Shown here: one piece after another, positions 2,443 to 12,443 of the stretch
Position numbering within the stretch: the first letter of the stretch is position 1
Layout of the letters: each line of letters starts with the position of its first letter
From: Planctomycetota bacterium
Lineage (GTDB): Bacteria > Planctomycetota > Phycisphaerae > WQYP01
NCBI GenBank assembly: GCA_021819825.1
Contig: JAKAEZ010000013.1
Span: 1 to 64,000 of the forward strand
DNA length: 64,000 nt
Direction of reading: 5' to 3'
Translations under genes and position numbers: made by a program
The notes under the pieces: generated by a model
Databases searched by the model: none
The model's input: the letters and a program-made list of their open reading frames with translations, nothing else
What the model was told of the DNA's origin: nothing

Positions 2443-5400
2443 CTAAGACGATGACGCATTGACCAATTCGGCCAATGATCGGTAATCGACTTTTCCGGTT
2501 CCCAGGATTGGTAATTGGTCCAGGCGCACAATGGCGCGGATGTGGTGCAAGCCGGAGAGGCCGGCTTCGCGGATTGCGGCGTTGACTTCTGATCGGTCTA
2601 ACTGCCGCGTGGTGGCCAGCACCAGTTCAGGCGTGTCATTCTCGGTCGTTGCCACAACGGCCAACGCCGGCGAACTATCGGGCGGGGCGGGAAACTTGCG
2701 TTCCAGAACTTCTTCTATCGCCGGCAGGGAAACCATCTCTCCACCGAGTTTGATGAAGCGCTTTAATCTTCCGGCAAATGTCAGCACACCAGCGGCATCC
2801 GCACGGATCAGATCGCCCGTGCGATACCAGGTTTCACCGTCCCATTGCACAAAGGGCGATTGCGTTTGATCACCCAGATATCCCTTAAAAATACTTGGCC
2901 CGCGCACCAGCAGCATTCCCGGCTGATCTGGGGCACAGCGTTGCCGCGTTTCTTCATTGATAATGGCCCACTTAATGGAAGGCAGTGGCATGCCGATGCT
3001 GCCGGGACGAATATCATTTTCCCGGGCCACTGAAACAAAGGGCGAACATTCCGTAATGCCGTAGCCTTCTAAAATAGAGGCTTGCGGGCAGGCTTTTTTT
3101 AAGGCATCGTATACGCTTTGCGGGCATTTCTCCGCTCCGGTGACACAGATTCTCAGAGCGGATAATGAATCCGGCTTGCTGCCGCGAACAATGTTGGCCA
3201 GGAATGTCGGCGTGCCCAGGAGAATCGAAGCGCGGTAGTTTTCAATGACACGAACCAATGCCGAGACATCATTGGGATTGGGGTAGTGCACAACTTTAGC
3301 TCCCGCTAAAATCGGCACAAGCATGGCGGCATTTAACCCGAAGGAATGAAACGGCGGCAGCATACCCAAAAAGCAGTCGCTGCGGCGAATGTGAAAACTT
3401 GCCAGCGCGTCACGCATGTTCACCAGCAGGTTTTCATGACTTAGCGGCACAGCTTTGGGAAGTGCTTCCGAGCCACTGGTAAATAATATGACAGCCGTTT
3501 CAGAGCCTGCAACCTGATTCAGCGGCTGCCAGTAAAACTTTCCTTTGATCGCGGCCCTTAACTTCGCCCATTTTCCCAGTGATCCAGCGAGTTTTTCCAG
3601 CGGTACCATCCGGTCATTCAAGCTTGAAAAATCCATCCCCTGCGCCGCCAGGCGGCTTAATAGGGCCTGGGCGGTCAGCACGCGCTGCACCTCGGCAATT
3701 TCTAAAGCGTGGGCGATATTGCGTACACCGGTAGTCCAATTCAGCATGACCGGTATTTTTCCGGAAAACAGCACCGCCAGAAATACCGTATCAGCCGCCA
3801 CCGAAGCCGGCAGCATAATGCCGACCCGTTGCCCCGGAAATTTCATAATTTCTTCACGCAACGCGAAAATGGACGTGATTAAATCACGGTAGGTTTTGCT
3901 GCCCCGCTGTATATCAGCCACCGCAACCTGATCCGGGTGCATCCGGGCTTGTGCCAGAAATACTTCCTGAATCGTTTTGCCCGGCGGCAATTGTACGCGC
4001 TGGGTTCCGCGTGCCTGAAACCAGCGGGATTCAGGCATGGGAACGGCGGATTCTTTGCGTGCGGCCGCCAGTTGCCCGCACGCCGCCAGCATGACATCAT
4101 GAACCGTTTCCAGCGATTCCACGGCCGGCACCGTAACACCGAACTCTTTTTCCAACCAGGCGATTACGTCCATAATCGCCAGGCTGTCCATGCCCAGGTC
4201 CCGCGCTAATAATTGATCGCCCGTCAGAGTCTTCATGCCGGTCAATTCACCAAGATACTCCAGCACGATTTTTTGCGTAGCCGGTGCAACAGGTTCGCTT
4301 GGGGGATGCGGCCGGCGAGCCGTTGCGGGAATATCACGCGGGCCGCTGCGGTCCCAGATGCTGTACGGCACATACCGCGCGGGCGGCGCTTCCTGATTAT
4401 AAAAGCTTTCCATATACCGGTTCATTTCGGATCGTGTGCCGCGACGGGGAAAATCATCCGGCTGATGAAAGGTGATTTGCACCTGCCGCTTGGGCGCAAA
4501 AAATATCCCGCTGGCTAATAAATCCATCAGATGGGCCTTAAATGCGCGACCAAGCCTGGGGGCCGCACCGGTGCCCCACCCAAAACTGCTGCCCCATAAG
4601 CCTGTGGTTCGCACCAGCACCACGCGCACATCCGGCAACTGCGCCAAGATGCGTTCAACCGCACTGGCACTGCCCAGATCAGTTACCTGTTCCCGCATTA
4701 ACCGCCCCGCCGGGTACAGCAGAATATTATCCCCCTGCCGCAGCGCTTCCACGCACCGCGCGATAGCCAGTTGCACGCGATCCGCTTTGCCGTGTTCAAT
4801 GCTGGACATTTCCGGTATGGGCAGAACACCCACGGTGCCAACCAGTGCTTTTACCAGCGGATGACGAAGTTGATCTTCCGCAGTTAAGGGTCGCACCGCT
4901 ACATACCGGTGCAAATGAGCGACCATAATAATCGGATCAATTAACGCCGGATGATTGGGCAGAAAGAGTATTCCGCTGTGGCCGGTTTTTTTAATCTCGG
5001 TCACACCATTCAAGGTTATGCGATAGCGCAGGCGCAAAATCACCCGCGCCAACAGGCACCACAACCGCCCGGCCCAGTTCGTTTTGCCGCCAGTGCGCTG
5101 GGGATCGCTGCATGCGAAAGCCACGCCAATAATGGCCGCTGCCATTATCGTCAACACGCCCGAAGCCAGAAACACCTGTGTAGGTACCAGACCGTTCTGT
5201 AAAGGTATATACAACATACTGCCCATAAGAATACCCGCAAATGATGCAAACCACGCGGCGGCAATGACCTGTCCCCGCACAGCGGCAGCCGGCCGCACCT
5301 GGAAAAAACTCTCCAGCGGCACCATGATAAACCCACCGGCAATTCCTGACCCGCCCAGGGCCAGAAGCACATAAATGAGTTTCACCGCGTGCGGCAACAA

Positions 5401-6660
5401 TGGTGCCGCCCCGATGCCGCACAGAAATATTGCCAACGCTCCCATCGCCGGCGCGGTGGCGCGATGTCCATTCTCTCTGGAAATAAATTTGCCGGCGGCC
5501 AGACTTCCCACCACAATTCCCAGCAATTCCGCCAATGCCAGATAACTGGTGGTGGCGTCATTGAGGCCAAACTGTACCAGCCCCATTTTGTTAATGACCA
5601 GTATCTGCAAGGCCGCAATGAACCAGAAATAAGTGTTGGCAAGGATCGCGGTTATTAATATTCGATCCGTGCGCAGGAGCCACAAATCCCGAAGCGAATT
5701 CACGGGGCCTCCCCGTGGAAACTTGGCGGCGGGGTTCGCGGCGGGCCGACCCGGCACGGCAAAGCTGATCATAAACCCCAGTATGGAAATGCCCACCAAC
5801 GATGCGGCCACAATAATTCTTCCAAGTGGATACGCACCGATATGCCCGCGGCACGTCAGCGCTATTCCCGCCAGCACCACGCCCAGGAGTATCGCGGCGG
5901 TAGTGGCGGCTTTGAGCCGTGCGTTGGCCTTGATAACGTACCATTCGGGATAAACATCCGGAATGGATCCCACTAAAGCGGGACCGAAAATAGTCGCCTG
6001 CAGCGCCATGAGGAAAATGACCGCCATGATCAGAAACCAGTTCAGCGTCAGAACTCCCACGGCTGCCACAGTCAACAATACTAATTCCAGGGCCTTTGAG
6101 CCGATGACCACATGCTTGCGGGAAAAGCGATCCGCCATCCAACCGGCTGGCGCGGAGAAAAATAAAAATGGAATGGTAAAGAACGTCGCAATCCATCCCT
6201 GCAAATGGGCTAGTGCCCTGTTCCGGCCATAATTACGGGTTGACGGAGGGCCAAGGGGTTGTGGGCGCGAAGCGAGGAGGATTGCGTATGGATGCATACG
6301 TTGACGACGAGCGACAAAGCCCGCGGCCCCTTGGCCCCCGCCCGAAGGGTTGGCCTTAAACCGGCCATCTGCGGCGTCGCGTCGGCTCAAGGGGTTTACG
6401 AACCCGGTTCTCGCCGCCGACTCCTTGCATCTGGCCGGTTTAAGGCCAATCAACCCGTAATTATGGCCGGAACAGGGCACTTGGCCATGGGAAACTGCCA
6501 GGAGGCTCACCGCCTGCTTCATGAAATTGTCATTAAAATTTCCCAGCGAATAAGCGCCCGCCATGGCGATAAAACGCGAACGCCCTTGGCGAATCTGATG
6601 GGTCTGATTGGCAGTTGTAATCTGGGGTTTGTCCGGGAATTCAGCAACGGTCATTTTCAA
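2443..6660 (-). CDS. MFS transporter / 1-acyl-glycerophosphate acyltransferase / acyl carrier / AMP-dependent acyl-ACP ligase fusion (LplT-Aas-like)
   Basis: 1405 aa ORF: MFS segment (GWMADRFSRK), PlsC-like acyltransferase (LFLPNHPALIDPI), ACP-like segment with DSL (LGMDSLAIMDVI), AMP-binding motifs (ILFTSGSEALPKAVPLSH; EGYGITECSP; YRTGD). Confidence 0.85.
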   Translation of the reverse strand: MKMTVAEFPDKPQITTANQTHQIRQGRSRFIAMAGAYSLGNFNDNFMKQAVSLLAVSHGQVPCSGHNYGLIGLKPARCKESAARTGFVNPLSRRDAADGRFKANPSGGGQGAAGFVARRQRMHPYAILLASRPQPLGPPSTRNYGRNRALAHLQGWIATFFTIPFLFFSAPAGWMADRFSRKHVVIGSKALELVLLTVAAVGVLTLNWFLIMAVIFLMALQATIFGPALVGSIPDVYPEWYVIKANARLKAATTAAILLGVVLAGIALTCRGHIGAYPLGRIIVAASLVGISILGFMISFAVPGRPAANPAAKFPRGGPVNSLRDLWLLRTDRILITAILANTYFWFIAALQILVINKMGLVQFGLNDATTSYLALAELLGIVVGSLAAGKFISRENGHRATAPAMGALAIFLCGIGAAPLLPHAVKLIYVLLALGGSGIAGGFIMVPLESFFQVRPAAAVRGQVIAAAWFASFAGILMGSMLYIPLQNGLVPTQVFLASGVLTIMAAAIIGVAFACSDPQRTGGKTNWAGRLWCLLARVILRLRYRITLNGVTEIKKTGHSGILFLPNHPALIDPIIMVAHLHRYVAVRPLTAEDQLRHPLVKALVGTVGVLPIPEMSSIEHGKADRVQLAIARCVEALRQGDNILLYPAGRLMREQVTDLGSASAVERILAQLPDVRVVLVRTTGLWGSSFGWGTGAAPRLGRAFKAHLMDLLASGIFFAPKRQVQITFHQPDDFPRRGTRSEMNRYMESFYNQEAPPARYVPYSIWDRSGPRDIPATARRPHPPSEPVAPATQKIVLEYLGELTGMKTLTGDQLLARDLGMDSLAIMDVIAWLEKEFGVTVPAVESLETVHDVMLAACGQLAAARKESAVPMPESRWFQARGTQRVQLPPGKTIQEVFLAQARMHPDQVAVADIQRGSKTYRDLITSIFALREEIMKFPGQRVGIMLPASVAADTVFLAVLFSGKIPVMLNWTTGVRNIAHALEIAEVQRVLTAQALLSRLAAQGMDFSSLNDRMVPLEKLAGSLGKWAKLRAAIKGKFYWQPLNQVAGSETAVILFTSGSEALPKAVPLSHENLLVNMRDALASFHIRRSDCFLGMLPPFHSFGLNAAMLVPILAGAKVVHYPNPNDVSALVRVIENYRASILLGTPTFLANIVRGSKPDSLSALRICVTGAEKCPQSVYDALKKACPQASILEGYGITECSPFVSVARENDIRPGSIGMPLPSIKWAIINEETRQRCAPDQPGMLLVRGPSIFKGYLGDQTQSPFVQWDGETWYRTGDLIRADAAGVLTFAGRLKRFIKLGGEMVSLPAIEEVLERKFPAPPDSSPALAVVATTENDTPELVLATTRQLDRSEVNAAIREAGLSGLHHIRAIVRLDQLPILGTGKVDYRSLAELVNASSS
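6212..6481. repeat. 270-bp palindromic element with perfect 32-bp terminal inverted repeats, inserted in frame in the MFS domain
   Basis: AGTGCCCTGTTCCGGCCATAATTACGGGTTGA (6212-6243) is the exact reverse complement of 6450-6481. Internal inverted pairs: GGCCAAGGGG (6249-6258)/CCCCTTGGCC, and GGCCTTAAACCGGCCA/TGGCCGGTTTAAGGCC. Confidence 0.9.
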
Positions 6661-11465: not shown

Positions 11466-12443
11466 ATGGCCAGAAGTCGGTACAGTAAATTTCGATCGCG
11501 CCTGTGGAAGATAGTGGAAATCGACCGCCAACTGCGCCAGCAATGGCACCGGGGGCGGCCCTGTACCAAAGAATCGCTGCTGGCCGGATTGAAGGATATC
11601 GATGAACGCACGTTGCGACGTCTTATTGAACTGATGCGCGACGACCTGCACGCTCCCATTGAATATGACCGCGCCCTGCAAACCTATAAATACACGAATC
11701 TCACCTTTGTTGTGCCCAATGTACAACTGGATGAGGATGAAATGCACGTCTTGGCCACGGCGGTGCAGGCCATCCGCCCGGTCATGCCGACCTCGCTATC
11801 CAAGCGCCTAGATAAACTGCTTTCCAAACTGCTTGATGCACTGCCGGAAAGCCAACGCGATGACGTTCGCCGCGCGCAGGGGCAGGTAGAATTTGTGCCC
11901 GCCCCCGTGCTATCCAAAGGGGCTCAATGGTTTGAACCCCTGCACCAAGCTATTGTCGGGCGGCATTCCGTGGATATGACTTATTATGTGCAGACCAAGG
12001 AACAGGAAACGCAGCGGCGATTTGATCCATATTACCTGCGCAATTATCAAGGGGCCTGGTACGTGGCGGGTTACGATCATCTGACCAGGCATTGGCCGAT
12101 TTTAAAGCTGGCGCGTATCCGGGCCTTAAGCGTTTCCGATGAGATCTACGATGTACGCCCATTCAGCGCCGCCGAATACTTTAAGAATAGTCTGGGCATC
12201 ATGGTCGGCGGCGACGCACAGCCGGTGCGAATTCGCCTGACAGGTTACGCCGCAAGCACCGCCGATGAGCGCATCTGGCCCCCCGGCTTTACATATAAAG
12301 CGACAGGGCCGGGGGAAGGCATTCTCTCCGGTGAACTGGCGAATGTGACTGATTTGCTCCAATGGGTATCCGCATTTCAATGCGATGCCGAAATTCTGTC
12401 ACAGGTGCCCTCGGAGCTTCGGAATAAGACAGGCGGTGAGTAA
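11466..12443 (+). CDS. WYL-domain transcriptional regulator
   Basis: 325 aa; N-terminal HTH-like segment (DERTLRRLIELMRDDLHAPIEYDR) and WYL-like core (RFDPYYLRNYQGAWYVAGYDHLTRHWPILKLARIRAL). Confidence 0.85.
   Translation: MARSRYSKFRSRLWKIVEIDRQLRQQWHRGRPCTKESLLAGLKDIDERTLRRLIELMRDDLHAPIEYDRALQTYKYTNLTFVVPNVQLDEDEMHVLATAVQAIRPVMPTSLSKRLDKLLSKLLDALPESQRDDVRRAQGQVEFVPAPVLSKGAQWFEPLHQAIVGRHSVDMTYYVQTKEQETQRRFDPYYLRNYQGAWYVAGYDHLTRHWPILKLARIRALSVSDEIYDVRPFSAAEYFKNSLGIMVGGDAQPVRIRLTGYAASTADERIWPPGFTYKATGPGEGILSGELANVTDLLQWVSAFQCDAEILSQVPSELRNKTGGE

Follow-up and report, generated by a model that had tools for sequence, protein, structure and literature searches.

Palindromic repeats inserted in frame within protein-coding genes have been reported from Rickettsia, Neisseria (Correia elements), enterobacteria (ERIC) and Coxiella (PMC10969869, PMC2229807, PMC5896051). 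The closest functional parallel to the element described here would be the Rickettsia palindromic elements (RPEs; Ogata et al. 2000, 2002, as related in PMC10969869 and PMC2229807), which are likewise palindromic, multi-copy and found in frame in unrelated protein genes, where one open frame is used, and which are tolerated in conserved genes. In these accounts RPEs are about 105–150 bp long, compared with 268 bp here, and only some of them are associated with TA, whereas the present element is found consistently at TA in CTAG. Their hosts are Rickettsiales rather than Phycisphaerae, and nearly half of the copies in Rickettsia are given as lying within genes, as against a small minority here. 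The likeness drawn here is one of behavior: the element works like an RPE, which is not to say that it is one.

Among miniature inverted-repeat elements (MITEs) of the IS630/TA type, the closest are RUP and Correia. RUP, from Streptococcus pneumoniae and driven by IS630-Spn1, is also an IS630-type MITE with a TA duplication and terminal inverted repeats, but is 107 bp long, has stops in all six frames, is intergenic and has an identified IS partner (PMC2229807). Correia/NEMIS elements are likewise TA-flanked palindromic MITEs, one size class of which is fused to reading frames; they are 107 or 155 bp long, occur in Neisseria and have different arms (PMC2229807). QMITE1 and QMITE2 of Coxiella, which are unrelated in sequence, resemble the present element in overlapping the stop codons of genes, adding C-terminal residues and sometimes lying in frame inside ORFs, the interior cases being in hypothetical proteins (PMC5896051). 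IS630-type elements themselves duplicate TA, with CTAG as the preferred target of IS630 (PMC2170065, and the titles of Tenzen & Ohtsubo cited there), and rare AA/TT or one-sided duplications seen in experiments with ISY100 resemble the right end of the element in the window; these are autonomous elements with a transposase, unlike the one here (PMC2170065). Assignment to REP/REPtron sequences was rejected, REPs being characterized in PMC3733652 as extragenic palindromes of 20–40 bp with a GTAG/CGTC tag, in contrast to 268 bp with GTGC ends in CTAG.

The element and its empty site

The window, i.e., the whole stretch of 64,000 nucleotides that was analyzed, comes from a short-read Phycisphaerae metagenome-assembled genome (MAG) of 2.49 Mb, estimated as 68% complete, in 72 contigs, many of which break at the element. 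The features of the locus are collected in Table 1. Pfam identified MFS, acyltransferase, PP-binding and AMP-binding domains in the host ORF, as in an LplT-Aas-like fusion, and the element lies in the first loop of the MFS part, between TM1 and TM2. By MFS convention this loop is periplasmic.

Table 1. Features of the element and its host gene (positions in the window)
Feature	Positions	Strand	Remarks
Host gene, 1405 aa: LplT-like MFS transporter, PlsC-type acyltransferase, ACP and AMP-ligase	2443..6660	-	start TTG 6660 or ATG 6654
Inserted 90-codon segment in host frame, net charge +12	6211..6480	-	
TA target-site duplication, intact copy, inside ctag	6211..6212	.	empty site in relatives
Palindromic MITE-like element, arm subtype A, 268 bp	6213..6480	.	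multi-copy in own genome; copies in 18/150 relatives; 22/32 full copies = 268 bp
Left terminal arm, perfect inverted repeat, 31 bp	6213..6243	+	
Internal hairpin I, with highly conserved unpaired segments GCGCGAAGCGAGGAGGAT / GACGACGAGCGACAAAG	6244..6342	.	folds, covariation
Internal hairpin II, arms 6350-6372 / 6427-6449	6350..6449	.	
Right terminal arm	6450..6480	-	
Target-site duplication, second copy, TA decayed to TT (gene strand: AA)	6481..6482	.	

The uninterrupted host gene, with an empty site, is present in five congeneric genomes (83–96% identity), for example as CATGGCCTGGCCCATTTG compared with CATGGCCAA-(268 bp)-TAGCCCATTTG; in the closest relative the empty site reads CATGGCCTGGCCCAT, compared with CATGGCC-AA-[268]-TA-GCCCAT in the window. 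The inserted unit is thus 268 + 2 bp, made up of the element and TA. A preliminary description of this locus had proposed a 270-bp element at 6212–6481; the 90 codons and the open frame stand, while the element proper is 268 bp (6213–6480), plus TA. It had also placed the split at SHG/LAHLQGW, which is correct as to location, except that the native sequence is SHG-L-AHLQGW, and the TA lies within the Leu codon. This codon is CTG in relatives and was presumably CTA here. TA was duplicated on insertion, and one of the duplicates changed afterwards.

The terminal arms are perfect inverted complements over 31 bp, or over 32 bp when the flanking A/T is counted, which agrees with the exact 32-bp inverted ends (6212–6243 and 6450–6481) reported earlier, and the nested inverted pairs reported with them are present at 6248–6266/6319–6337 and 6350–6372/6427–6449. 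A wider inverted pair of 39 bp, extending beyond the element (6205–6243/6450–6488), is 95% identical. Folding, which the preliminary description had called for, gave an energy about 14 SD below dinucleotide shuffles, both as RNA and as DNA and on both strands (reached by 0 of 200 shuffles).

Copies in the genome and its relatives

The genome itself contains about 17 further copies or fragments of the element, at 81–100% identity, several of them at contig ends, and copies were found in 18 of 150 relatives. An exact core pattern searched in GTDB contigs matched only in Planctomycetota/Phycisphaerales MAGs; no match was found in plasmid and phage collections, and a literature search on planctomycete MITEs returned no report of the element. 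Copies occur in both orientations, many between genes, and almost every complete copy has TA in cTAg at its boundaries. Of 32 full copies, 22 are exactly 268 bp long, despite sequence divergence of up to about 25%. There are two arm subtypes, A beginning GTGCCCTGTTCC and B beginning GTGCTCTGTCAC. At one position in the genome (G000:C61:41307-41353; L033 1408-1453) there is a 43-bp palindrome composed of fused arm ends, where a sister genome has the full element (L067); this remnant is an internal deletion through the hairpin.

The element is short, has terminal inverted repeats, contains no transposase gene, and is dispersed in copies with target-site duplications, the duplicated TA lying in a preferred CTAG target; its translated frame has no Pfam match. 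On this comparative evidence, 6213–6480 is a MITE-like insertion with the target signature of IS630/Tc1-mariner elements and not conserved protein sequence, and the element constitutes a new family of MITEs that has inserted in frame more than once. The MITE-like insertion in frame that the preliminary description envisaged is borne out by the copies in this genome and its relatives and by the uninterrupted MFS homologues in five congeners. Two findings that it named as contrary, the same 90 residues as conserved protein in distant taxa, or a lack of other copies combined with an assembly artefact, did not appear. Its view of such an insertion as unusual needs to be tempered in the light of Rickettsia, Neisseria, enterobacteria and Coxiella.

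Insertions within and beside genes

A search of the 150 genomes with the 90-residue insert peptide, together with open-frame lengths, identified further insertions inside genes. In the congener G003 (C318:9147-9416; L193 1648-1917) the element interrupts, in frame, the part of yajC that encodes the signal peptide, with the junction ATG AAA TCA TGG ATT GAA CTA-(element)-CTA GGT TCT..., while congeners (G005 and others) have the empty site. In G017, from another genus (C56:10120-10383; L190 3121-3384), it sits midway along a planctomycete membrane protein of about 500 residues, again in frame, with TA duplicated in CTAG, and the orthologue in the congener G022 is uninterrupted. These two insertions are independent of each other, each with an orthologous empty site and TA duplication. 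In G018 (C120:4129-4398; L192) an element at a contig end shares the frame of the C-terminal part of a gene, this part matching the intact G006 gene at 95% identity right to the edge of the element; the upstream side is off the contig, and this copy is probably a fourth interior in-frame insertion. The element thus shares with RPEs the trait of in-frame insertion in unrelated protein genes: the window gene, YajC, the G017 membrane protein and probably the G018 gene. A search with the peptide encoded in the opposite orientation gave no real interior case. A candidate fusion in a 954-residue open frame (L060, G007) was rejected, because the gene has an ATG and a signal peptide of its own and the element lies upstream of it, and L039 and L191 were likewise interpreted as upstream positions.

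Other copies that touch genes are mostly at gene 3′ ends. Genes for RbsD/FucU, GH2, an aldo/keto reductase (AKR), SecDF and others end at a TAG created by the target duplication, while in the genes for a radical-SAM/SPASM protein, GT87, a HATPase and an HTH protein the element contributes about six codons. The three phases in which genes read into the element occur at roughly 6:4:4. A preference for native TAG stop codons was accordingly dropped, and only the location at gene 3′ ends is claimed. In the window there are 18 CTAG sites where 35 are expected, and 12 of the 18 are within genes; because CTAG is under-represented and most of its sites in the window are genic, selection is the most likely reason why disruptive copies are lacking in gene interiors.

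In-frame “selfish” palindromes have been described mainly in Rickettsia, which is obligately intracellular and has a reduced genome. A second, unrelated family that repeats this behavior, in planctomycetes from the environment, would suggest that MITEs in general give rise to protein-coding palindromes. The pairs of orthologues with and without the element (LplT-Aas fusion, YajC, membrane protein) also allow a test of how proteins accept some 90 random residues.

Proposed mechanism of spread

We propose that the insertion in the window is a recent one by a non-autonomous MITE, driven in trans by a transposase of IS630/Tc1-mariner type, with open-frame insertions surviving selection, and we give this reading a probability of roughly 0.85. 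The palindromic MITE would have spread through one Phycisphaerae family, most likely moving by cut and paste. A putative transposase acting in trans would recognize ends starting GTGC and attach them at TA within a CTAG site, with duplication of the TA. Insertion in one orientation and phase would add 90 residues and not kill the gene, and selection would purge interior insertions in a bad phase, leaving copies that are intergenic, at gene 3′ ends, or in the open frame within the window gene, YajC, the G017 gene and probably the G018 gene.

The genome contains a seemingly intact IS630-family element (G000:C69, around 10444; L127 933-2052), located in CTAG, with ends reading CTA followed by GTGCGTAATTGCAATAAA. 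It carries the only DDE_3 transposase found in this 68% complete genome, and the two elements share CTA/GTGC alone plus the target. In IS630 loci checked from up to 41 genomes, the TA-flanked ends match the element no further than GTGC, and no element combining the same ends over 12 bp or more with a transposase gene was found, in a set that includes the 68% complete genome itself. Two single-ended pattern matches (L157 and L158) have no transposase ORF, as judged from the ORFs of L157 and from the ends.

Reading frame and effect on the host protein

TA plus 268 bp makes exactly 90 codons, so that the downstream frame is always restored. One of the six frames of an A-type element is free of stops, and the insertion in the window uses exactly that frame; the other phases run into TAG at once (from the target duplication), terminate about six codons in, or meet a stop deeper within the element. 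A random frame of the same composition would be open with p = 0.064, or about one time in three for any of the six, and B-type copies contain stops; the idea that the open frame is an adaptation was dropped on these grounds. The inserted peptide is VPCSGHNYG...NRAL (90 aa), and its tryptic peptides include TGFVNPLSR and ANPSGGGQGAAGFVAR.

We infer that the insert is translated and that the function of the fusion is retained; since the element lies in the TM1–TM2 loop, the remainder of the fusion protein could still be made. It may instead be that the insertion abolished the function of the transporter, or of the fusion protein as a whole, and that the open frame is a coincidence in what is now a young pseudogene, a possibility to which we assign a substantial chance, somewhat short of even. 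The copy in the window shares 99.6% identity with another copy; the insertion is therefore young, and there may simply have been too little time for the frame to decay. A highly basic segment in the conserved TM1–TM2 region also fits inactivation: for a periplasmic loop, a net charge of +12 conflicts with the positive-inside rule and could leave the transporter non-functional. The chance of an in-frame insertion is just one in six. Against inactivation, the three or four independent interior insertions all use the open frame, one of them in YajC, and the host ORF (6660–2443) is open across the insert with no other lesion in its 1405 codons. The MFS part of the gene has dN/dS of 0.05–0.07 at genus level, which indicates purifying selection, mostly for the time before the insertion.

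Covariation of the palindrome

In an alignment of 32 copies of the element, compensatory changes occur in 43 of 93 consensus pairs and 97% of cells pair, a result that none of 500 shuffles reached, and the signal is abolished when the pairing partners are slid. Among pairs predicted on both strands, G.T mispairs (31 cells) and A.C mispairs (21) are about equally frequent, and with gaps filled there are 32 of each; this balance points to a constraint on the DNA palindrome and not on one RNA strand. An apparent excess of G-U on the plus strand vanished when both-strand pairs alone were counted, the bias having come from the folding method. The palindrome is kept at the DNA level, by selection on the hairpin or by arm-to-arm templated repair, and this large set of covarying palindromes makes it possible to ask whether cruciform DNA is selected or is maintained by templated mutation. 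In the most divergent full copy (L051, from another family; G101, 1449-1715), the unpaired inner bases are 89% identical and the paired inner bases 67%; in this single copy the stems have been largely rewritten with pairing retained, and the loops are conserved.

The constant length of 268 bp, the covarying arms, the conserved loops and the lack of strand bias could be taken together as a three-way-junction DNA fold that functions in movement, within a 270-bp design with one open frame that evolved for life inside genes, i.e., a system of protein-coding palindromes that originated independently of Rickettsia, and no mere passive MITE. We consider this unlikely.

It is much more doubtful still that the element is a structured RNA, either a functional ncRNA or a self-splicing intron, that is removed or acts as RNA. 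The strong conserved fold with its compensatory pairs would suit such an RNA, as would the loops of L051 being better conserved than its stems; however, the mispairs favor neither strand, the TA duplication and GTGC ends are those of a transposon, and both orientations occur. An Rfam scan of the element, including group I and II introns, gave no match at the gathering threshold or at E ≤ 5, and the sole sub-threshold match (L054) is located outside the element. The earlier suggestion that the element might be spliced from the RNA gained no support: the analysis revealed no trace of an intron, with no Rfam match even in this permissive scan; there is a TA duplication, and the open frame makes splicing unnecessary.

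Assembly and minor observations

It is equally hard to credit, and marginally more so, that assembly pasted a repeat copy into an intact gene. The short-read MAG, with many of its 72 contigs ending in the element, is of the kind in which this might happen, but both flanks come from the same gene in the correct order, the TA duplication has its own decay, and clean TA duplications are found at independent loci in other assemblies. Because contigs so often break at the element, interior bases of the window copy may be borrowed from other copies. That the insert is a protein domain genuine to this transporter clade, as the open frame might suggest, is already refuted by the empty sites, the segment being missing from every aligned orthologue, the five congeneric ones included, lacking a Pfam match, and recurring as the same DNA between genes at many places.

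Two further fragments in the genome are of note. One (G000:C61:121-380; L008) is a chimera whose left arm is of type B and whose right arm is of type A, the two being no longer complementary, and arose by recombination between copies or by misassembly. The other (G000:C31:1-330; L036) is a lone A-type arm that adjoins part of a gene for a WYL-like regulator, this part resembling an intact gene at 11466–12443 in the window.
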